The notes under the pieces: generated by a model
Databases searched by the model: none
What the model was told of the DNA's origin: nothing
Seen by the model: the letters and a program-made list of their open reading frames with translations, nothing else
Shown here: positions 47,790 through 58,056 of the stretch, piece after piece
Layout: each line of letters begins with the position of its first letter
How positions within the stretch are numbered: position 1 is the first letter of the stretch
From: a virus
Virus record (IMG/VR): IMGVR_UViG_3300042453_002354
Location: 1-64,000 of that record
Reading direction: 5' to 3' (one strand)
DNA: 64,000 nt
Translations under genes and position numbers: made by a program

Positions 47790-48347
47790 CTACTCCTGTG
47801 TTGATAATTGATCTCCCCACGAATCCCATCCAGATTCAGTTTGTCTAGCAAAAAGTTCTATTCTAGGTAAATCACCAACTAATTCTACTATATGTTTTCT
47901 TATTATATCAGGCTTTTTGCTATGAGATTCTATTGGCGATAAAACAACTTGTTTGATTGATGCAGACTTTCTTTTGATCTTGCCACGTAAACCTAGTAGA
48001 CACAATTCGGCATTGCTTCTGGTCCAGTTTCCCATACCCATAAAAATTGTATCTTGAGATTTTTTGTTCGTCTTGACCCAAGTGAATGCACAAGTTTTAT
48101 ATGTAAATCCCCAAGATTTAATTACATTTAATCCTTCTTGTAGCTTAGGATATGTAACCCACATAAAAAGAATGCAATCATCAGCACATATCTCAGATAT
48201 TGGTAGTTCTTCTATTGATTTGTCATTCATTAAATTATATTTACATCCTGCACCTCTGTTCCCTGCTAATGCTTTATCTTTATACATCCAAGGAGGATCT
48301 GCATAAATTATATTATACTTCTTATTAGGGAAGGGTATCATAATCAA
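47790..48347 (-). CDS. MT-A70 family adenine methyltransferase
   Basis: 185 aa. YADPPWMYKDK (residues about 16-26) carries the DPPW catalytic motif of MT-A70 N6-adenine methyltransferases; LFMWVTYPKLQEGLNVIKSWGF, FTWVKTNKK, GMGNWTRSNAELCLLGLRG and SKKPDIIRKHIVELVG follow in family order, the last with the SxKPxxxR SAM-site pattern. Likely modifies phage DNA (protection) or RNA; target unknown. Overlaps gp41 by 4 bases. Confidence 0.88.
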   Translation of the reverse strand: MIMIPFPNKKYNIIYADPPWMYKDKALAGNRGAGCKYNLMNDKSIEELPISEICADDCILFMWVTYPKLQEGLNVIKSWGFTYKTCAFTWVKTNKKSQDTIFMGMGNWTRSNAELCLLGLRGKIKRKSASIKQVVLSPIESHSKKPDIIRKHIVELVGDLPRIELFARQTESGWDSWGDQLSTQE

Positions 48348-49729
48348 AATTTGAATCCAGAAAATTTAGAAGGTGCATCTTTAACTGGAAGATTTGAATT
48401 ATCAAAATCTCTTACGTTCTGTATTATATCATTTTGTGCAGATTCTTCAAGCTCATAAAATCTCATTTTAGGTCTGTCAATTCCTAATAGTATTTTTCTA
48501 TCTTTGGCAGCTTCGTTGTATCTATTTTTTAGTTGCTTGATCATTATTTGATTCTGCTTTTCCAATTCATCCGTAGAAATAAGAGCAAGCATTAAATCTG
48601 CGGTTGCTGGTACGCCAAAACTTTCTGAAGTGTTTTCTAATCCTACATCGGATGCATTGTAACCGCTTCTGTTTAACTGTGTTGCGGTCCATACTGGTAC
48701 CTTGTGTATAACGCTCAGACCACGAACCTCTTCTGCAATATACTTCACGTAAGTGTACATATTAGAAACACTATTAGATGACTTCAATCTGGCACTTACC
48801 ATGATGTTTAAGTAATCCAGAATAATGACATCTGGCTTGAAATTCTTCTTGAGAGATAATTCATTCAGAGTATTTGCCACATGAAACACACTAGCGGTAG
48901 ATGTTGGATATTCTTCTACTATAAGTTTGCCAGTAGTCTTTGATATGATTGAATTTAAAGACTTGAGAAATGCTGGTTTTGGTATGTTCTTTAAATCTTG
49001 TATCGGTATGTTGAGAAGATTTGCATCAAATCGTTCTGATGTCTTCTCTTTTGACATTTCAAATGTAGCATAAAAAACATTATACCCTTGCATAAAATAT
49101 GAGCAAGCAAGGTGAGACAAGAACGTAGATTTTCCTATTCCTGTACCGGCGACCACGATATTCAAGGTCTTCTTTGGTACACCACCATTAGTAATTTTAT
49201 TCAGTATATTAATATCAAATGGCAACTGTTCTTCTTTTGTGTGATAGTAACTAAATCTATCCTCATAATCTTCTGCATACGAATGACCAACAGAGGTATT
49301 AAAAGAAACGGCCAATGCCTCTTTCATCATATCGGGCAATACACCTACACTTCTTTTTTTATCTCTACCGTCAATTATTTCTATGCCACTTCTGAAGGCA
49401 TTTATTATAGCTTTATCTTTACAAAACTTTTCTGTCTGACCAAGAAACCATTCTTGGTTTGGTTTATCGTATTCTTTTAATTCTTTTATAGTATCTTGAA
49501 TGTTTTGATAAAGTTCAGAAGAAACTTGTTTATCGGCGGAACATATTGATATTGCTTCTATGGTAGGCAGTGCATTATGTTTTGCTATAAAATCATAGAT
49601 GCAAGAAAAAACGATCTTGTCAGATGGCGAATCAAAGTATTCTTCCTTGAGAAAGGGAAATACTTTTCTGCAATAATCTTCATCGTGTATCATGCCCTTC
49701 AATATAAGGGACTCTATTTTGTCTGACAT
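48344..49729 (-). CDS. gp41: Replicative helicase gp41 (DnaB-type)
   Basis: 461 aa (T4 475). N-terminal domain (1-150), then RecA-type core: VAGTGIGKSTFLSHLA (Walker A near 186-193), NVFYATFEMSKEKTSERF, PDVIILDYLNIM (Walker B), VPVWTATQLNRSGY (H4/DnaB4), SFGVPATADLMLAL. Hexameric 5'-3' helicase, partner of gp61 and gp59. Sits behind uvsX, as in T4. Confidence 0.94.
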   Translation of the reverse strand: MSDKIESLILKGMIHDEDYCRKVFPFLKEEYFDSPSDKIVFSCIYDFIAKHNALPTIEAISICSADKQVSSELYQNIQDTIKELKEYDKPNQEWFLGQTEKFCKDKAIINAFRSGIEIIDGRDKKRSVGVLPDMMKEALAVSFNTSVGHSYAEDYEDRFSYYHTKEEQLPFDINILNKITNGGVPKKTLNIVVAGTGIGKSTFLSHLACSYFMQGYNVFYATFEMSKEKTSERFDANLLNIPIQDLKNIPKPAFLKSLNSIISKTTGKLIVEEYPTSTASVFHVANTLNELSLKKNFKPDVIILDYLNIMVSARLKSSNSVSNMYTYVKYIAEEVRGLSVIHKVPVWTATQLNRSGYNASDVGLENTSESFGVPATADLMLALISTDELEKQNQIMIKQLKNRYNEAAKDRKILLGIDRPKMRFYELEESAQNDIIQNVRDFDNSNLPVKDAPSKFSGFKF

Positions 49730-49992
49730 TGATTTCCTATAATTTGAAATAACTGAGATGCAATTTCATTAATCATTAACATCATAGACTGTTCTTGCTG
49801 TTCTGTCAAATCCTCTTTCAATAGATGCATCAAGTGAGTTGGAACTCCTGCTATTTCATAAGAAAACTTTCCTTTTCCATTTACCTCATTAAAGTTATCA
49901 AAAACAATAAACATGCCAGACCAATATCCTTCCATTACAAAAACTTTTATACCTCTGGCTTTGTGTTCAACTATTTGGTATTTTTTGATCAT
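49714..49992 (-). CDS. Hypothetical protein between UvsX and gp41 (92 aa)
   Basis: Start at 49992 (MIKKYQIVEHKARGIKVFV), with GAAGAAGG 6 bases upstream; an in-frame GTG five codons earlier is rejected. Beta-rich N-terminus (YQIVEHKARGIKVFVMEG) and helical C-terminus (LTEQQEQSMMLMINEIASQLF). Overlaps gp41 by 16 bases. No family recognised; position suggests replication accessory. Confidence 0.68.
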   Translation of the reverse strand: MIKKYQIVEHKARGIKVFVMEGYWSGMFIVFDNFNEVNGKGKFSYEIAGVPTHLMHLLKEDLTEQQEQSMMLMINEIASQLFQIIGNQCQTK

Positions 49993-49993
49993 A

Positions 49994-51070
49994 TTAACCT
50001 TCTTCACCGTTTAAAATATCTTCTACGAAAATATCTGTAGATACGCCACCATATAACATGGTATTCTTAACATAAGTATTGATCTTATGCAATACTTCTT
50101 CCGTAAAGAAGTGTTTAGGATTTTCTCTGATTTCCTTTTCAAATACACTCTTACCGCCAGGCACTTGTATTCTAGTGGATACCTTTGTAAAAATCTCAGC
50201 TTCTAATGCAATGTCAATTAATCCATAATATCTGTCAAGCCCACTCTGAAAGTTTAACAACACTTGAGCTACAGATCCTTCTTTAGTCAATCGAGATTTC
50301 ATGGCAGTGCATTTGATCAAAACGCCTACCAAGTTTCCATCTTTATCCTTCTCTTTGCTTTTGGATAGCATTATGATGTTATTTGCTGCATATTTCAATC
50401 CGCCACCGCCGCCAATAGATTTTTTAGGACCATACATTTGACCAACATTTTCATATACATGATTGGTCATAATCATAGGTATGCCAGCTTTGCTAAGTTT
50501 TAGTGTGAGCACACGAAATGCCGCTCTAATTTCAGATTGTCTGGTCATATCTTTCTTGTCACTTCCACTTTCCGTGTCTGCAACTTCTTTGTTTGTAGAT
50601 AACATACCAAGACTATCTAAACATATCATCATCTTACGATTTTCATTTTTCGCCTTCTTCTTTTCTTCAAGATAGTTATCAACTAACCTCAAACACTGTG
50701 ACTTAAATTGCTGTATCGTTTCTACGGGAACCATCAAAACTCTTTTTGCATCTATGTTCCGATTCACTAATAATTCTTTTGTGATCGCACCTTCACTTTC
50801 AAACACAACGACGACCGCATTTGAATCAGTATCAAGAAAATGTTTGACAATAGAAAGCATAAAGTAAGTTTTACCAGTAGCTTCTTCACCAGCTAATGCG
50901 CTGATTTTGTTTGAAGGAAATCCACCAAAAATATCACCAGAAAATAATGCGTTTAATGCATAACTGCCAGTATCAATAAATTGAGGTATGTCCGCATAGG
51001 TGCCTTCTTCTGCAACACTTGCGTATTCATTATCAAGTGATTTTATTATTTCTTTGAATATGTCACTCAT
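49994..51070 (-). CDS. uvsX: UvsX recombinase (RecA-like)
   Basis: 358 aa (T4 391). Walker A ALAGEEATGKTYFMLS (near 45-52), VVVFESEGAITKELLVNR, MICLDSLGMLST (Walker B), TRQSEIRAAFRVLTLKLSKAGIPMIMTNHVYENVGQMYGPKKSIGGGGGLKYAANNI (L2 loop and GGGG signature). Catalyses strand invasion for recombination-dependent replication. Acidic C-terminus (EDILNGEEG). Confidence 0.95.
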   Translation of the reverse strand: MSDIFKEIIKSLDNEYASVAEEGTYADIPQFIDTGSYALNALFSGDIFGGFPSNKISALAGEEATGKTYFMLSIVKHFLDTDSNAVVVVFESEGAITKELLVNRNIDAKRVLMVPVETIQQFKSQCLRLVDNYLEEKKKAKNENRKMMICLDSLGMLSTNKEVADTESGSDKKDMTRQSEIRAAFRVLTLKLSKAGIPMIMTNHVYENVGQMYGPKKSIGGGGGLKYAANNIIMLSKSKEKDKDGNLVGVLIKCTAMKSRLTKEGSVAQVLLNFQSGLDRYYGLIDIALEAEIFTKVSTRIQVPGGKSVFEKEIRENPKHFFTEEVLHKINTYVKNTMLYGGVSTDIFVEDILNGEEG

Positions 51071-51079
51071 ATTAGTATC

Positions 51080-52171
51080 CTAAAATAAACTCTTCTTATT
51101 TTCTAATGACCAACCAATGCAGTTTGCAATATCTTCTATGGGTTTTCTGAACATCTTATCAAATTGTGTGTCATAGTCAATATATTTGTGAAGATTAAAT
51201 TCAATAGGTAATTGATCTATAAAGCCAATAACATCTTCTCCTATTGGATTAGGCGTTTTAAGATAGACATATCTGATCTTTTCCTTCTCTTCAATCTTTT
51301 GATATTTGGCAGACAGATCTAATTTTTTTATGTAATGATTATATAATAAAGATGCTCTAGTGTTTATCGGACAAGATTTTGCATATATGGTTTTACTATC
51401 AGAATACTTGTCTAATCCATTGACAGTCTTCGGAAAGGCAATGTCATTTACTTGAGCATCATTGTAGATTTTTTTAAAGTTTTTTACGAAATCTTGTAAA
51501 GTTTTTTGATCTTCTTGCAGAAGTATTCTAAGTGCTTCGTACAAATATTCTTTAACAAACGATGGTGTAGAACTTTTAACAACATCTAAACCTGTAGCTT
51601 TAACTTCCGGTTCTTGATAACGAACACCTTCAACATCAATAGCGTTGACAACATATCTTTTCTTGGCAACCCAGATACCACGATCTGCCAAAGTCTCTCT
51701 TTTCATTTCCATTCTAGGCAGAAAACCATTTGTATAGTCATACAAATTCTTGAATGATTGCTCTATCTTTTTCTGCAAACCTTGCTCACAAAATGCATCA
51801 AGAAAATCTATGACCTTCTGCACAGGAAGTTCTTTACCTGCTAGAGTTTTTAAAACAACTTGTTCTAGATTTAGATATACAGAATCGGTATCAGAGGCTA
51901 TAACAAAGTCTTGATTCTCTGTGCCTAGAAGTTTGTTTAAATATTGATTTAAATCTTGCTGAATCCACTTGATTGCTAATTGACCGGATAGTGTAACGGC
52001 TTCGGCTTGGCGCACATCGAAATATCTGAAATAGACATTACCTAATGCGCCGTAAGCCGAATTCAACATTACCTTTCTGCCGTTCTGAGTGTTAGAATAC
52101 TTAGACACTAATTTTTCAAGTGTTTTTTTCTTTTCTAGCAACTCTTCGGTTGATAACTGAGAAAGATCCAT
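51080..52171 (-). CDS. gp43C: DNA polymerase gp43, C-terminal part (split)
   Basis: 363 aa. Begins MDLSQLSTEELLEKK, a helical segment of the fingers, then motif B RKVMLNSAYGALGN, motif C IASDTDSVYLN (about 96-106), and the thumb (VAKKRYVVNAI, YDTQFDKMFRKPI and a clamp-binding-like C-end NKKSLF). The palm Asp pair DTDS is complete, but motif A lies in the other part (52960-54423). Weak ribosome site. Must associate with gp43N; together 850 aa against 898 in T4. Confidence 0.93.
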   Translation of the reverse strand: MDLSQLSTEELLEKKKTLEKLVSKYSNTQNGRKVMLNSAYGALGNVYFRYFDVRQAEAVTLSGQLAIKWIQQDLNQYLNKLLGTENQDFVIASDTDSVYLNLEQVVLKTLAGKELPVQKVIDFLDAFCEQGLQKKIEQSFKNLYDYTNGFLPRMEMKRETLADRGIWVAKKRYVVNAIDVEGVRYQEPEVKATGLDVVKSSTPSFVKEYLYEALRILLQEDQKTLQDFVKNFKKIYNDAQVNDIAFPKTVNGLDKYSDSKTIYAKSCPINTRASLLYNHYIKKLDLSAKYQKIEEKEKIRYVYLKTPNPIGEDVIGFIDQLPIEFNLHKYIDYDTQFDKMFRKPIEDIANCIGWSLENKKSLF

Positions 52172-52176
52172 GAATA

Positions 52177-52488
52177 TTACTTAAATAGTTTGCTAAAGAA
52201 TCCTTTCTTGGTTGGTTCGGGCAAATCTTCCAATATTTTAGTAGGTAATTCTACCTTCTCGGGTACTCTAACAACTTTAGATAATTTGTCAACCTTGAAT
52301 AGTAGTTTATCATCACAAGTTCCTGCAAGTGAATAAGTGGCCTCTGACAGATCTATTTCTCCAGACTCGGATGATGTGGCAGCAGATAGCAAAAATTTTG
52401 ATAGTTCTTTTCTGGGATCTTCAGACATTCCAAATACTACCATTTCACTTAAAGAAATTTGTACTAATGCATAAAATTGATCACTCAT
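52177..52488 (-). CDS. Hypothetical protein inserted in gp43, gene 2 (103 aa)
   Basis: Start at 52488 (MSDQFYALVQISLSEMVVFG) chosen because AAGGAG is 7-8 bases from it; an ATG two codons earlier is too close. Acidic, mixed alpha/beta, with ATYSLAGTCDDKLLFKVDK in the middle and a basic end KKGFFSKLFK that resembles short interaction tails. Only 5 bases before the gp43C ATG. No endonuclease motif (no GIY-YIG, HNH or LAGLIDADG). Function unknown. Confidence 0.75.
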   Translation of the reverse strand: MSDQFYALVQISLSEMVVFGMSEDPRKELSKFLLSAATSSESGEIDLSEATYSLAGTCDDKLLFKVDKLSKVVRVPEKVELPTKILEDLPEPTKKGFFSKLFK

Positions 52489-52499
52489 TTTCATTCTCC

Positions 52500-52910
52500 T
52501 TACTTTTTAGTTTTTGATTTTGGCTTAGCGACTTCTGATTTTTGATTTGGTGTTGACTTTTTCTTCGCCGGTGCCACATCAGCTTCTTTCTTTTTTGATT
52601 TTGATACGACTGGTACTACTGGTTCCAATACAATCTTTTTTGACGCTTTGCCGGACTTAACTGGTTTTGCTGCACGTTCTTCTAAGACTCCGACTACAGA
52701 AAAGACAGCCACTTCACCACGAGCACCCCAAAGAACATATTCAAATTGATTTTTATGCCAAACAAAATTCTTACCTTTACTATTGCTTATAATTTTGTTC
52801 AGGAATAGATCACCTATAGCCTGTTCGGATTTTCCTAGATTAAAAATTTCATCTATTGACACAAATAGGAAATCTTTAAAATTTTTCGTTTTAGCCTTTT
52901 GTTTTACCAT
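52500..52910 (-). CDS. Hypothetical protein inserted in gp43, gene 1 (136 aa)
   Basis: Start MVKQKAKTKNFKDFLFVSID after GGAG, behind its own promoter at 52942-52970. Residues 1-80 form a small domain (FLFVSIDEIFNLGKSEQAIGDLFL...HKNQFEYVLWGARGEVAVFSVVGV); residues 85-136 are Lys/Ala/Pro-rich (KSKKKEADVAPAKKKSTPNQ), a disordered, DNA- or RNA-binding type tail. No homing endonuclease signature. Lies in the gap of the split polymerase gene. Confidence 0.78.
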   Translation of the reverse strand: MVKQKAKTKNFKDFLFVSIDEIFNLGKSEQAIGDLFLNKIISNSKGKNFVWHKNQFEYVLWGARGEVAVFSVVGVLEERAAKPVKSGKASKKIVLEPVVPVVSKSKKKEADVAPAKKKSTPNQKSEVAKPKSKTKK

Positions 52911-52941
52911 GATATCTCCTATAAAAAATTCAACAGTTCAA

Positions 52942-52970
52942 ATCATATTACAAAAATAACTAATCGTCAA
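52942..52970 (-). promoter_or_regulatory. Sigma70-type promoter TTGACG-N17-TATGAT at polymerase split
   Basis: -35 TTGACG (52965-52970) overlaps the last codons of gp43N, -10 TATGAT lies at 52942-52947, exact 17-base spacing. Predicted start near 52935, 25 nt before the inserted gene at 52910. Would express the two inserted genes and gp43C separately from gp43N. Confidence 0.65.
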
Positions 52971-54423
52971 GACCTCTGCGTCTTAATTCTTGTTTAATTT
53001 TTTGTAACTCATTCTTACACTCAATCATTTGGCTTTTGTATTTTTTTCTTTCTGTGTATAATCTTTCTATTATTGCGGGAAGAAATCCTTGACCCTTTCT
53101 GGAAAAGAAATGACCGTTTGCAGTAAACGCCAGATTGTCTTTCTTCAGTGAAGACAAATCGACCGAACGAGAAAGTAGGTCTTCTATCTTCACATCAATC
53201 TTATGACTAGTCAATAGCTTCTCTGGTGATATGTTGTATTGAACGATTAACATCGGATATAGACTGTTTACGTCAAACGAGGATATCCATTTGTGCATAC
53301 CTATGATTGGTTCCTTTACGGCGGCACCTTCATATTGTGCCTCTTTATCTCCGTCCTGTTTTGGCGGAATAATCATTTTCATTTTTTTGATATGATTAAA
53401 AATTATGATATCCCAAAGTCTAACCTGCTTGAAAACATCCATAAAGTTTACAAGACTATCATAAGCAATGGTCATAATCATTTCCATTAACTTGAGCTTT
53501 TCTTCTAACTTCATTACAAGTCGAACGTCATGAATGTTATAATCTATAAATTTTTGAAAGTTTGTCGTATATAATGTTTTTAGATTACCATCAAAAGTAA
53601 TCTTTGCTTCTCCAAGTTCTTCTTTTGCAACGGTGTCGAGTTTATAGTTCTCTGGTTTGGCGTTGTGAAACTTTTTATAAATTTCTATGTAATCTAATGT
53701 CACTATACCCAAAAAATCATAAGCAGTATAAGTTTTATTTTGTATTGTCATTGTTCTAGTTTTTATCTCATTCCAAGGTGAGATATTTTTAGCATAATCC
53801 TTTTCAATCAACCTATTCATTCTTCCGACGAGATATGGTATATCAAAAAAGGTTATATTGTAACCAGAAATTATATCGGGCGATTCTGTTCTAACGTGTT
53901 CAACAAACGAGCATAATAGTTGAGTTTCCGTTGAACATTTTCTGTATTCTACATTTGATTCGGATGGTGTGTAATCGCCTAGACCAAAAACTACAAACTT
54001 TTTACCAACACCACAGGTTATTGCTATCACCTTTTGGTCAAAAACTTCCATACTAGGAAATCCACTTTCACAAGTAGTTTCTATGTCAAAGTATAGTACT
54101 TTGATTCTATTGAGATCGTAATCTATTCCATTTTCGTACATATCAGAGATGCAAGCATAATCATATTGCTGTAAACCCCAAACTTCATAGTTGTCTACAT
54201 CGCCGTAGTTGTTTACGTAATCTCTTGCTTCTGATATGCTATCAAATTTTATTCTGTCTAACCACTTCTTGCCATCATAGCTCATATATCTCGTACTCTT
54301 CTTAGAAGGTAAGAAAAGACTAGGCTTATATGGAATTTTTTGTTGTACACGACGACCGTGATCGTATCCCGTATACAATACACTATTTCCTCGAACGGAA
54401 AAGTGTGTATAAAATTTTGACAT
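52960..54423 (-). CDS. gp43N: DNA polymerase gp43, N-terminal part (split)
   Basis: 487 aa. Family B polymerase with full proofreading domain: LYFDIETTCESGFPSM (Exo I), SGYNITFFDIPYLVGR (Exo II) and YNIHDVRLVMKLE (Exo III). Motif A SSFDVNSLYPMLIVQYN (about 393-410) is present; motifs B and C are not. It ends ERKKYKSQMIECKNELQKIK...RRRGLDD in the first fingers helix. GGGATAAC precedes the ATG. The polymerase is completed by 51080-52171. Confidence 0.94.
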   Translation of the reverse strand: MSKFYTHFSVRGNSVLYTGYDHGRRVQQKIPYKPSLFLPSKKSTRYMSYDGKKWLDRIKFDSISEARDYVNNYGDVDNYEVWGLQQYDYACISDMYENGIDYDLNRIKVLYFDIETTCESGFPSMEVFDQKVIAITCGVGKKFVVFGLGDYTPSESNVEYRKCSTETQLLCSFVEHVRTESPDIISGYNITFFDIPYLVGRMNRLIEKDYAKNISPWNEIKTRTMTIQNKTYTAYDFLGIVTLDYIEIYKKFHNAKPENYKLDTVAKEELGEAKITFDGNLKTLYTTNFQKFIDYNIHDVRLVMKLEEKLKLMEMIMTIAYDSLVNFMDVFKQVRLWDIIIFNHIKKMKMIIPPKQDGDKEAQYEGAAVKEPIIGMHKWISSFDVNSLYPMLIVQYNISPEKLLTSHKIDVKIEDLLSRSVDLSSLKKDNLAFTANGHFFSRKGQGFLPAIIERLYTERKKYKSQMIECKNELQKIKQELRRRGLDD

Positions 54424-54424
54424 G

Positions 54425-54718
54425 TTATCCCGTAATCAGTGATGATGGTGTTATGAGACCAGTAGACATTTGCCTATATTGTGCGGCAATCTCTTCTGCT
54501 GGTTCATAATCATACATAACGAACTTTTTGTCAATCTTTATTTCAGCTTCGGGATTAGTTGCTATTAGTGGAACAATTAGTAAATCTGGACCTTTTGGCG
54601 TGTGTCGCATTGCCAGTATTAGTGGAAATCTTATATTAATGTGAGTTTCGGATTGTGAAACTAATTCCGCAACCACATCTTCACCTGTACTCAATCTAAA
54701 ACATCTCGATGTGCTCAT
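54425..54718 (-). CDS. Sm/Lsm-like conserved phage protein (97 aa)
   Basis: Small beta-barrel type sequence: CFRLSTGEDVVAELVSQSETHINIRFPLILAMRHTPKG...IVPLIATNPEAEIKIDKKFVMYDYEPAEEIAAQYRQMSTGLITP. The start (x-L-x-T-G-E-D-V-V-A-x-L) resembles Sm-like (Lsm) domains as annotated in marine phages; a six-ring RNA binder is possible but unproven. Immediately upstream of gp43N. Confidence 0.75.
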   Translation of the reverse strand: MSTSRCFRLSTGEDVVAELVSQSETHINIRFPLILAMRHTPKGPDLLIVPLIATNPEAEIKIDKKFVMYDYEPAEEIAAQYRQMSTGLITPSSLITG

Positions 54719-55284
54719 AATGTATCCTTTGGTTTATACGCAAGGGTAAAATTGTTTGGTTCGACTTCTACGCTCTCAAAGGCAAATGTTCTATGCCCTC
54801 TCATTTTGGAGTAGAAATCTCCTATTTTATTGGCTCTCCAATCGCCAACGACAACTTCTTTATTTAATCCTGGCCAAGCGGCACTATTCGTCCCTATCAA
54901 TACCGCCTTTGATTCTGCTTCTTTATAAAGAACTGAATCCTGATCAAATCTTTTGCCAAAACTTTTTAGAAATCCTTTCAGTTTGCCATTATCATCTTTA
55001 TCGGAAATTACCAAAAAACTATTTTCAATTACCTTTTGTGCTTGTGGAGTACCAGCATCTTCTATATAATGACCCTCAACATTTATGAAACCAAATCCAG
55101 CAGACCTTATCAAAGATTTTAATTGTTTGTTTCTGTTTAAATTTTCTTCTCTTGAATACCCCTTTCGGAAAGCGGTCAACATACCTATAGTTTTTTCTTT
55201 GGTGTGTTGAAAGATTCTAGATAAAGACGATTCGTGTAATGCATATTCTTTAAATTCTAGAATGTCTGATTGTTTATTCTTCAT
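54715..55284 (-). CDS. Conserved phage protein of unknown function (189 aa)
   Basis: Contains AFRKGYSREENLNRNKQLKSLIRSAGFGFINVEGHYIEDAGTPQ, SFLVISDKDDNGKLKGFLKSFGKRFDQDSVLYKEAESKAVLIGTN and GHRTFAFESVE, a pattern I associate with a T4-like marine phage family without known role. Overlaps the lysozyme gene by 11 bases and the Lsm-like gene by 4. Confidence 0.75.
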   Translation of the reverse strand: MKNKQSDILEFKEYALHESSLSRIFQHTKEKTIGMLTAFRKGYSREENLNRNKQLKSLIRSAGFGFINVEGHYIEDAGTPQAQKVIENSFLVISDKDDNGKLKGFLKSFGKRFDQDSVLYKEAESKAVLIGTNSAAWPGLNKEVVVGDWRANKIGDFYSKMRGHRTFAFESVEVEPNNFTLAYKPKDTL

Positions 55285-55762
55285 GAGAACCGTCCTCCGA
55301 TTGCAATTCGTACAGACCAGACAAAAACATTTCTTTTTCTTTTTGCCTACGCCTAATTAAACCTTTTACTACTTTACCCTTCGCAAGTCTCCATTTGTCA
55401 AATTCTTCGGCACTCTCTTCATACTTACCTTGATTTAATAATTTTAATAATTGTGAATTCTTGAAATTACCTTGACCGACATTGTATACAAAAGAAACCA
55501 AAGAGTCAAACATTTTTTGATTAATGTCTACCTTAACTCTGTTATTAATACATTGTTCAAATTCAAATAAATCTTCCAATAATGCATCTTCGGCTTGTTT
55601 TTTATTCCAAACCATGCCAAGTCTAATCGGAGATCCTTTATATCTTGTAGTACCATAACCAATTGTCGGAACACCAGCAGAACAAAGATATGCGTGTAAT
55701 CGCAATCCTTCGAGAGTTTTGATTAAATCAAGACCAGACGTTGAAATGCTTCTCTTTGCCAT
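55274..55762 (-). CDS. Endolysin, GH24 (T4/P22-type) lysozyme
   Basis: 162 aa. Catalytic segment LEGLRLHAYLCSAGVPTIGYGTT (Glu18, Cys27-type position, Thr33) and later FNVKVDINQKMFDSLVSFVYNVG-type helices with NKKQAEDALLEDL are those of GH24 muramidases (E-x8-[DC]-x5-T). No N-terminal signal, so it needs a holin to reach the wall; none is clearly identified. Between dUTPase and gp43. Confidence 0.92.
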   Translation of the reverse strand: MAKRSISTSGLDLIKTLEGLRLHAYLCSAGVPTIGYGTTRYKGSPIRLGMVWNKKQAEDALLEDLFEFEQCINNRVKVDINQKMFDSLVSFVYNVGQGNFKNSQLLKLLNQGKYEESAEEFDKWRLAKGKVVKGLIRRRQKEKEMFLSGLYELQSEDGSHEE

Positions 55763-55764
55763 GA

Positions 55765-56250
55765 TTATTTACCCGTTGAGCCAAATCCACCCGTTCTAGT
55801 GGTATTGGATGGTTGTATTAATGTTTCGACTATGCTGTATTCATAATTCTTCACTAGCTCGCCCTGTGCGATTCTCTGACCGTGTGAAACTACTATATCG
55901 GACTTGCTATGATTAATCATTGCAACCTTTAGTTCGTTGACATAATCAGCATCAATAACACCCTCACAGTTTACTAGAGTCAATCCGGACAATGCTAATC
56001 CGGATCTTGGATGTAACCTAACGGAATGTGCATTAGGTATATCGAGAATAATTCCGGTTGGTATTAAAGCAATATCGCCCGGCTCTATGGAAACAAACCC
56101 ATGTGTAAGTTCGATTTCTTGACCATTTAACAATGGTTTAGAACCTTCACTCAAATATGCCGCTATGTCAAAACAAGCAGATCCCTCTGTCGCAAACTTA
56201 GGAATTTTTGAGTCTGCGAAAATAGGATAAACACATAATTTTATTTCCAT
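55765..56250 (-). CDS. dut: dUTPase
   Basis: 161 aa, trimeric type. Motif 1 GSACFDIAAYL, motif 2 HPRSGLALSGL, motif 3 CEGVIDADYVNELKVAMIN, motif 4 HGQRIAQGEL and motif 5 RTGGFGSTGK at the end are all present. Hydrolyses dUTP to dUMP, the ThyX substrate. Its ATG overlaps the regA stop as TAATG. Confidence 0.95.
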   Translation of the reverse strand: MEIKLCVYPIFADSKIPKFATEGSACFDIAAYLSEGSKPLLNGQEIELTHGFVSIEPGDIALIPTGIILDIPNAHSVRLHPRSGLALSGLTLVNCEGVIDADYVNELKVAMINHSKSDIVVSHGQRIAQGELVKNYEYSIVETLIQPSNTTRTGGFGSTGK

Positions 56251-56657
56251 TACTTTTTTTGCCCTATATTATATTTTGCAACCAATCTCCATTCACTCTT
56301 TTCTGAATGTGGTATGATTTTTATTTGCTTGATCGATATGCTATTATTTTGCAATACCGATTCGTTCAGTATTTCTACTAAACCCCAAGTCTGCAAAGCC
56401 AACGCTATGGCATTTCTTCTGGCTATATCTTCTTCTGAAATATTTGCTGTTTTACCATCAAGCAAAAATAGTTCTTTAAAATGGCAAATGTAATATTTAC
56501 CCCTTTTGTGTAGTATGTGACAACTTTGATATAAAGTTTTATTTTGCTTTGACGCTACACCAATTCTAGTTAAAGTCTCTCTTATTTTTAGAAAATCTTC
56601 TTTATTCTTTAGTTGGACTTCAACAAACTTCTTTACGATATCATCATTATTATTCAT
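56250..56657 (-). CDS. regA: RegA translational repressor
   Basis: 135 aa (T4 122). KNKEDFLKIRETLTRIGVASKQNKTLYQSCHILHKRGKYYICHFKELFLLDGKTANISEEDIARRNAIALALQTWGLVEI matches T4 RegA almost motif for motif. Binds early mRNA start regions to repress translation, including gp44, gp45 and its own message in T4. Placed between gp62 and dUTPase, in T4 order 45-44-62-regA-43. Confidence 0.95.
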   Translation of the reverse strand: MNNNDDIVKKFVEVQLKNKEDFLKIRETLTRIGVASKQNKTLYQSCHILHKRGKYYICHFKELFLLDGKTANISEEDIARRNAIALALQTWGLVEILNESVLQNNSISIKQIKIIPHSEKSEWRLVAKYNIGQKK

Positions 56658-56667
56658 GGCAACTCCA

Positions 56668-57051
56668 TTATTTTATACCATTGCAAATGACCTTTATTTT
56701 ATTTATATCTTCTTCACTCAACACTTCTAAATGTATCAGAGCTTCTCTTGTACTGCAATTAAAATATAGCTTTATATGATCAACATTTTCTATTTTTATT
56801 TTCTTACCCCAAGAACACTTCCTTTTCTTTGCTCTTATGGACTCTCGAAGATAATCATACTGCATCTTTTTCGATAAATGCCAGTTACGATTCATTTCCT
56901 GAGCATATAAGATTGTATCTATATTTGAAGATAGGAATCTGTTAATAAGATAAGGATTGTAATCCTGTTCAGGATATTCACCAGTTTCAATTAAGTCTTT
57001 TTTGTTTTCTTGTATAGAGTTTAAAAAATCAAATACACAGTTATTGCTCAT
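56668..57051 (-). CDS. gp62: Clamp loader small subunit gp62
   Basis: 127 aa (T4 187), a shorter form common in marine T4-like phages. VFDFLNSIQENKKDLIE, YLINRFLSSNIDTILYAQEMNRNWHLSKKMQYDYLRESIRAKKRKCSWGKK align with T4 ([21 protein letters not shown]...FNYLMAAVPRGKRYGKWAK). Bridges four gp44 subunits. Two bases upstream of gp44's stop. Confidence 0.85.
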   Translation of the reverse strand: MSNNCVFDFLNSIQENKKDLIETGEYPEQDYNPYLINRFLSSNIDTILYAQEMNRNWHLSKKMQYDYLRESIRAKKRKCSWGKKIKIENVDHIKLYFNCSTREALIHLEVLSEEDINKIKVICNGIK

Positions 57052-57052
57052 A

Positions 57053-57988
57053 TTAATTCCAAATAAGATTTACCATCAATTCAGTCAAACAGGCCAACAA
57101 GCATATTTCTGGATCTACAGAGAAGTTTGCCTTATATTGGTAGTCGGCTAAACATATAACAGACTGAGGAACTGATTGCTTTGCTATGTGTTCACCTATG
57201 CTATCATAGATTTTTCTATATAGAGCTTGCTGGTCTGCATCAGAATTGTTCACTACCCACTCCCTTACCTGTGTGAAGTTCTTATCCTTCATCGACTTAA
57301 AGAGAGAGGTCAAATTGGCATCTCTAAACTGTCTTAGTACACCTTCATTTATTTCTTTGTTATTTGAAGCAAATTTTTGCAATTCATTAATGGTCTTTCT
57401 GAAATCTGGAAAGAAGTTGAGTATAACTTGTCCGACAACTTCTGGTTTAAATGTAACCTTTTCTGAGTTGAGTATGAAAGATATTCTCCTATAAACGTCT
57501 TTAATTACCTGTTCTTTGTCGGATTTTTGTATGGAAAACTCTACAGTCGAACATCTAGAATGAATAGCATCTATAATTCTATTTTTGTAATTACAAGTGA
57601 GTATGAAAGAACAATTTATTGCAAAGTCTTCCATAAAACCTCTCATAGCAGCTTGAGCATCTGGCGTCAAATGATCTGCCTCGTCTAATATTAGAACCTT
57701 TCTAGATCCATCTAGGGATTTGGCGGAAGCATAGGTTTTCATCTTAGTTCTAAGAACATCTATACCTCTCTCATCTGAACTGTTTAATAACATATAAGAA
57801 CAGTCCAATTCATTACACATTGCTTTTGCGATTGTGGTTTTGCCCATACCTGGACCACCGCAAAGCAATAAGTTGGGAATTTGACCTTTGTTTACTATTT
57901 CTTGAAATGTAGATTTAATGTGTGATGGTAAAATACAATCAGCTACTATATTAGGTCGATATTTTTCTACCCAAAGAAAATGTTCCAT
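57053..57988 (-). CDS. gp44: Clamp loader ATPase gp44
   Basis: 311 aa (T4 319). WVEKYRPNIVADCILP, Walker A LLCGGPGMGKTTIAKA (near 41-48), Walker B KVLILDEADHLTPDAQ, Arg-finger region AIHSRCSTVEF (SRC). AAA+ motor which loads the gp45 clamp. AT-rich 70-base gap upstream. Confidence 0.95.
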   Translation of the reverse strand: MEHFLWVEKYRPNIVADCILPSHIKSTFQEIVNKGQIPNLLLCGGPGMGKTTIAKAMCNELDCSYMLLNSSDERGIDVLRTKMKTYASAKSLDGSRKVLILDEADHLTPDAQAAMRGFMEDFAINCSFILTCNYKNRIIDAIHSRCSTVEFSIQKSDKEQVIKDVYRRISFILNSEKVTFKPEVVGQVILNFFPDFRKTINELQKFASNNKEINEGVLRQFRDANLTSLFKSMKDKNFTQVREWVVNNSDADQQALYRKIYDSIGEHIAKQSVPQSVICLADYQYKANFSVDPEICLLACLTELMVNLIWN

Positions 57989-58056
57989 AATTTCACCTTA
58001 TAATAATATAAACTAAAGAAATAGTAACAGATAAAAAGAATAAACACAAATAATCT

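Follow-up and report, generated by a model that had tools for sequence, protein, structure and literature searches.

The DNA polymerase of T4-like bacteriophages (gp43, the product of gene 43) is in some phages encoded as two separate polypeptides. Split gene 43 has been reported for Acinetobacter phage ZZ1 (PMC4177764), and the two halves of the enzyme of Aeromonas phage 25, 43A and 43B, are described in PMC2988022, which cites Petrov 2010, as co-purifying with polymerase activity. Here we analyse a polymerase of this kind in a 64,000-nucleotide stretch of DNA of a T4-like aquatic phage (hereafter the window), which comprises bases 1-64000 of a 156,877-base IMG/VR virus record, IMGVR_UViG_3300042453_002354. 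The genes for its N-terminal half (gp43N) and its C-terminal half (gp43C) are separated by two small open reading frames (ORFs), A and B. In kind, such an arrangement is known; new are the content of the gap and the truncated tail of gp43C. We consider it probable that the locus encodes a naturally split T4-type polymerase which works as a two-chain enzyme, and that cargo recurrently settles in the gap between its cistrons, A and B being the cargo specific to this lineage. Of greater interest is the wider pattern, in which the tip of a polymerase is split time and again and serves as a site for cargo; those parts of the literature covered by our search contained no description of it.

A polymerase split at the fingers tip

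The two halves match successive and non-overlapping parts of PHROG 262, the T4-type DNA polymerase, with gp43N covering columns 6-496 (E-value 2e-147) and gp43C columns 498-847 (3e-134). Pfam matches on the halves are exo1 and DNA_pol_B, and two half-length polymerase families, PHROGs 2062 and 1918, match as well; the existence of these families implies that split polymerases are already among the PHROGs members. Between them the halves keep all catalytic motifs: exonuclease and polymerase domains are present, motif A was found by sequence in gp43N and motifs B and C in gp43C, as a sequence-only reading of the window had proposed, and the genes are syntenic with uvsX and gp41, as expected of a T4-type family B polymerase. 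The same reading had located the break at the fingers tip, and its ORF coordinates and the junction RRRGLDD / MDLSQLSTEELL proved exact. Both the coverage of PHROG 262 and the alignment to the solved RB69 and T4 enzymes bear out the split and its position. In this alignment gp43N reaches residue 505 of RB69 gp43, while gp43C is aligned from T4 residue 540 (RB69 553), with about 15-25 residues lying further upstream. Because the alignment ends there on solved structures, the break can be placed in the loop of the fingers hairpin at the tip of the fingers (RB69 residues ~510 to ~537), i.e. between the two fingers helices and at the position seen in phages 44RR, AM101 and ACG-2014f.

A core gene that appears split is sometimes the product of a sequencing error, as was reported for the first assembly of phage ZZ1 (PMC4177764), and a decaying or mis-assembled gene, either a chimera or a polymerase pseudogene, is one alternative. 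It is contradicted by a search among relatives for the same insert, which recovered the same layout, with A and B, in another four IMG/VR contigs belonging to four metagenome numbers (96.6-99.98% nucleotide identity, no internal stops). Selection speaks equally against it. Counted between the window and the three more diverged contigs of its lineage, gp43C shows 36-37 synonymous and no nonsynonymous differences, ORF A 4-9 and 0-1, and ORF B five and one, respectively, and the ratio of nonsynonymous to synonymous substitution rates (dN/dS) of gp43N within the lineage is ~0.05. Each of the four is a real gene on which purifying selection acts, strongly so in both polymerase halves. Since the layout is shared by four contigs and all four genes are under such selection, the arrangement reflects neither assembly error nor decay, and we leave that explanation practically no probability.

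Splicing, whether of RNA through a group I intron with internal ORFs or of protein through a split intein, could likewise restore a single polymerase, and gene 43 of Aeromonas phage 25 reportedly contains a group I intron, that of phage JSE a putative one (PMC2993671). However, Rfam gave no match at E<=1 over the 10 kb around the gene (48000-58000), the gap is nearly all coding and no group I intron was found in it, and neither after the gp43N stop nor before the gp43C start does any intein sequence occur, both ends lying within fingers helices. Similarly, a search of 18 related loci returned only transfer RNAs (tRNAs) at the gathering score and a group I intron in none of them. The sequence-only reading is supported in its coding insert and in its lack of an intein motif, and we regard splicing as very improbable.

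With the halves intact, gp43N and gp43C would be translated separately and then joined into one working enzyme. Such assembly appears feasible because the hairpin loop in which the cut lies, at the tip of the fingers, is exposed. Given the activity reported for the phage 25 halves in PMC2988022, together with the purifying selection, two-chain assembly is most likely the working mode in the phage of the window.

Recurrence of the split and contents of the gap

Scans of IMG/VR with gp43C queries, followed by a frame test, yielded 257 gp43 loci (given L numbers below), of which 67 were split, 161 unsplit and 29 undetermined; 67 in 257 is not a prevalence, as split genes served as seeds for two of the scans and near-duplicates are counted among the 67. 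In a less biased scan, two of 80 loci were split (L075 and L088). The fingers-tip break is shared by all 67 split loci, and it recurs in Aeromonas phages 44RR (genes 43 and 43B) and AS-yj, in which the halves overlap, in Acinetobacter phages such as AM101 (gp43A/gp43B), in Makaravirus cyanophages such as ME01 and in ACG-2014f cyanophages, and in a large uncultured clade (L088 clade). The Aeromonas precedent invoked by the sequence-only reading therefore holds at the same tip for 44RR, and it has company beyond Aeromonas. The searched portions of cyanophage genome papers make no mention of the split gp43 of T4-like cyanophages.

Two further loci deserve a remark. For the ACG-2014f locus L012 (3900-4124), the start annotated for gp43C, LGNQYFR, seems to be set too far downstream, as the frame is open upstream via GYLIGGDSEEK, a stretch homologous to the ATG-started N-terminus MGYLIGG of L075; ACG-2014f has no ATG there. 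In Pectobacterium phage POP12 (L016, 2441-6265), gp43 is cut elsewhere, just past palm motif A, by a gene with an HNH-like pattern.

In a tree of 79 rows (fingers-tip columns omitted, quick search, SH-aLRT support only), nine changes between the split and the whole state are needed, and at least six of them are forced by well-supported branches. A single origin of all splits outside Straboviridae is rejected (p 9e-39). Because the tree demands several changes and rejects a single origin, the split state is either recurrent or transferred. The window may nevertheless have inherited its split from a split ancestor common to the L088 clade, an origin compatible with the two-chain explanation. A tree uniting the two is not rejected (p-AU 0.198), and their fingers-tip ends are alike (..RRGL / MDLxxLsxxELL..). 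The best tree, however, keeps them apart, with the window as a long branch beside unsplit rows, and the likeness of the tips may be an old T4-type fingers helix retained on both sides; we treat common descent as a tentative possibility, clearly the lesser one. Between the fingers anchors, split genes have a median of 68 residues, unsplit marine-type genes mostly 44-61 and unsplit Straboviridae 84-103, and the extra fingers-tip helix of split genes could form an inter-chain contact.

What lies between the halves varies widely. In L075 and its relatives the gap is empty, with stop and start overlapping, and in L161 a single tRNA-Leu(UAA) in a 163-nucleotide gap is the sole separator. The other members of the L088 clade have gaps of 0.4-4.5 kb; the majority of these hold between one and eight tRNAs, a SpoU methylase is likewise found in most, and DUF5856, phosphoesterase and other genes also occur. 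Islands of tRNAs between the halves were seen in L088, L114, L115, L118, L120, L127, L128 and L143, and also in L151, L154, L156, L158, L164, L169, L170 and L172. Homing endonucleases of the HNH or GIY-YIG type occupy the gap in AM101 and in L014, L019, L146/L147, L192, L195, L198, L209 and L236. The gap gene of ME01 and ACG-2014f belongs to PHROG 3571/703, which has homologues outside gp43 in other cyanophages, for example at mazG in S-RIM8. Since these homologues sit elsewhere, the cargo comes at least partly from the general phage gene pool.

One pair of loci illustrates how a split might spread. L198 (4313-5017; split, with an HNH gene in the gap) and the unsplit L101 form a sister pair in the tree. 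In 40-residue windows their polymerases are mostly 75-100% identical, but identity drops to 60, 41 and 35% in the stretch that surrounds the break (residues ~401-520). In this one pair, the pattern fits an import of the split tip together with the HNH gene by homing with co-conversion.

In L236 (1-1500), a degraded HNH gene in the gap is followed by a second copy of the fingers region, of the unsplit type, which would represent either a recombination intermediate or an assembly chimera. A separate observation concerns the ATG of gp43C, which in L154, L156, L157, L158, L163-L165, L119-L121 and L128 is preceded at a distance of a few bases by extended -10 look-alikes of the type TGTGATACTATAC / TGGTATACTAT, as if for a leaderless transcript; by a loose pattern, and without a chance control, a -10-like element precedes gp43C in 16 of 33 loci of the L088 clade.

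The genes in the gap and the tail of gp43C

In the window, the minus-strand order is a gene of 97 amino acids (PHROG 527), gp43N, ORF A, ORF B, gp43C, uvsX and a gp41-type helicase gene, with regA, gp62, gp44 and gp45 upstream of the gp43 locus (Table 1). An endolysin gene (55274-55762) lies inside this replication cluster, adjoining dUTPase and regA.

Table 1. Features of the split gp43 locus, in coordinates of the window
Feature	Coordinates	Strand	Description
gp43N	52960..54423	-	487 amino acids; N-terminal domain, 3'-5' exonuclease, palm motif A, first fingers helix; C-terminus ...QELRRRGLDD*
ORF A	52500..52910	-	136 amino acids; C-terminal third lysine-rich; strong Shine-Dalgarno AGGAG
ORF B	52177..52488	-	103 amino acids (105 from the earlier ATG at 52494); strong Shine-Dalgarno AAGGAG; C-terminus KKGFFSKLFK
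gp43C	51080..52171	-	363 amino acids; second fingers helix, motif B, motif C, thumb; C-terminus ...NKKSLF*
Palm motif A SFDVNSLYP	53254..53280	-	by sequence; within gp43N
Fingers motif B KVMLNSAYGALGN / RKVMLNSAYGALGN	52037..52078	-	by sequence; within gp43C
Palm motif C SDTDSVY	51875..51895	-	by sequence; within gp43C
Gap (insert) between polymerase halves	52172..52959	-	788 nucleotides
Sigma-70-like hexamers TTGACG-N17-TATGAT	52942..52970	-	over the gp43N stop; not above chance
uvsX	49994..51070	-	directly downstream of gp43C in transcription order

The inserted module had been credited with a promoter of its own. The hexamer pair is indeed present, but such pairs are at chance level in the 3.9-kb region (19, against 15.1 +/- 4.7 in shuffles), so that they provide no evidence of a promoter. 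Homologues of A and B were sought in Pfam, PHROGs, 50,697 phage records (by tblastn), IMG/VR, the PDB sequences and their own genome, and were found in the same lineage only; at every other split gp43 locus examined they were absent. A scan of genome_contigs with gp43C as query likewise brought up no relative. A relationship to the small gap ORFs of the cyanophages was considered and dismissed, as those of ME01 and ACG-2014f are PHROG 3571/703 whereas A and B have no match. A recent foreign origin likewise finds no sign in composition, since the G+C content (GC) of A and B and that of their third codon positions (GC3) are within 0.7 standard deviations of other ORFs. As gp43C lacks a Shine-Dalgarno sequence and starts five nucleotides past the stop of ORF B, its translation is probably coupled to that of ORF B.

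RB69 gp43 contacts its clamp via an LExFF-like tail. A tail of this type ends 217 of the 222 gp43 proteins checked, the exceptions being the four contigs of the window lineage, all ending in NKKSLF, and L019. In the window lineage it is the last four residues of the clamp-type tail that are absent from gp43C (51080-51100). Because the usual clamp-binding tail is missing, we retain a subunit role of the inserted genes, as the sequence-only reading had suggested, among the candidates. A and/or B would then be accessory subunits of the split polymerase, with B, for example, giving the clamp contact in trans, or A and B together joining the two fingers helices. Both genes are under purifying selection, they are placed between the halves behind good ribosome-binding sites, gp43C seems to be coupled to B, and B ends in KKGFFSKLFK where gp43C ends in NKKSLF. 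Against this stand polymerases which have the same tip split but either do without an insert (as in Aeromonas AS-yj and the L075 group) or bear unrelated cargo, the lack of A and B homologues at other split loci, and the occurrence of the loose tail pattern in three other ORFs of the window; moreover, single-sequence AlphaFold models of A and B have a pLDDT of 43-44, so that no fold can be argued. We hold accessory subunits to be unlikely. Slightly more doubtful still is a combination of both ideas, recruited cargo in which B, perhaps with A, supplies the clamp or inter-half contact in trans and makes a three- or four-chain polymerase.

We therefore return to the two-chain polymerase with a cargo site in its gap. 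According to this explanation, the fingers tip would be a tolerated break that T4-like phages have gained repeatedly, and homing endonucleases targeting or occupying the tip would probably help the split to spread by gene conversion. Once the gene has become two cistrons, the gap could act as a docking site where cargo comes and goes. In the window lineage, where a homing endonuclease may have been present in the past, the cargo would now be A and B, a pair of small conserved genes that point the same way as the polymerase halves and are presumably co-transcribed with them.

Several observations weigh against this account. The PHROG search of the gap in all six frames returned no match, and thus no homing endonuclease or remnant, as the sequence-only reading had held, and the Pfam profiles HNH (PF01844) and GIY-YIG (PF01541) found none in the whole 156.9-kb record, so that the record shows no trace of how the split in the window lineage arose. 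In the comparison of L198 with L101, two other windows fall to 54-57%, and a conversion tract is not a unique reading of the pattern. A and B are conserved, which is not required of mere cargo, and something may compensate for the missing clamp tail of gp43C.

If the account holds, the fingers tip is a recurrent tolerated break of a replicative polymerase, whose gap receives homing endonucleases, tRNA islands and orphan genes. The spread of split alleles by homing becomes testable, as some close phage pairs differ in the split. The lineage of the window would also offer a PolB that is naturally in two chains and whose clamp-type tail is unusually truncated, and would thus help to gauge how far processivity depends on this tail.

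Comparison with known split genes

The Aeromonas phages 25, 44RR2.8t and Riv-10 (43A/43B) have the same protein in two tandem cistrons, with the identical tip cut checked for 44RR. Sequence identity to the window is below 40%, and, as had been supposed, the insert is unlike theirs: 44RR has an untranslated spacer of 49 nucleotides and phage 25 a seg-type homing endonuclease, whereas the gap in the window has two small ORFs and no endonuclease. The Acinetobacter phages ZZ1 and AM101 (Lazarusvirus) share the break, and the gap of AM101 also contains several small ORFs, but it is 2.9 kb long, and its five ORFs are different ones, accompanied by a reverse-oriented HNH endonuclease gene, MobE. In the uncultured L088 clade of IMG/VR, the same break and cargo in the gap are found; gaps there range from 0.15 to 4.5 kb and hold up to eight tRNAs, SpoU methylase, phosphoesterase and DUF5856, and the LExFF clamp-type tail is kept. 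A more distant analogue is nrdA of phage Aeh1, a core enzyme likewise cut into two working polypeptides by an inserted gene, mobE (PMC2988022); here the enzyme is another one and the insert is a homing endonuclease. The nearest cultured relatives of the window arrangement are the cyanophages ACG-2014f (Atlauavirus) and ME01/S-H34 (Makaravirus), which have the break, small hypothetical genes in the gap (one of 81 amino acids in ME01, two in ACG-2014f) and the order gp43-uvsX-gp41 in common with it, and differ in that the gene in their gap is a member of PHROG 3571/703, a cyanophage family to which A and B are unrelated.

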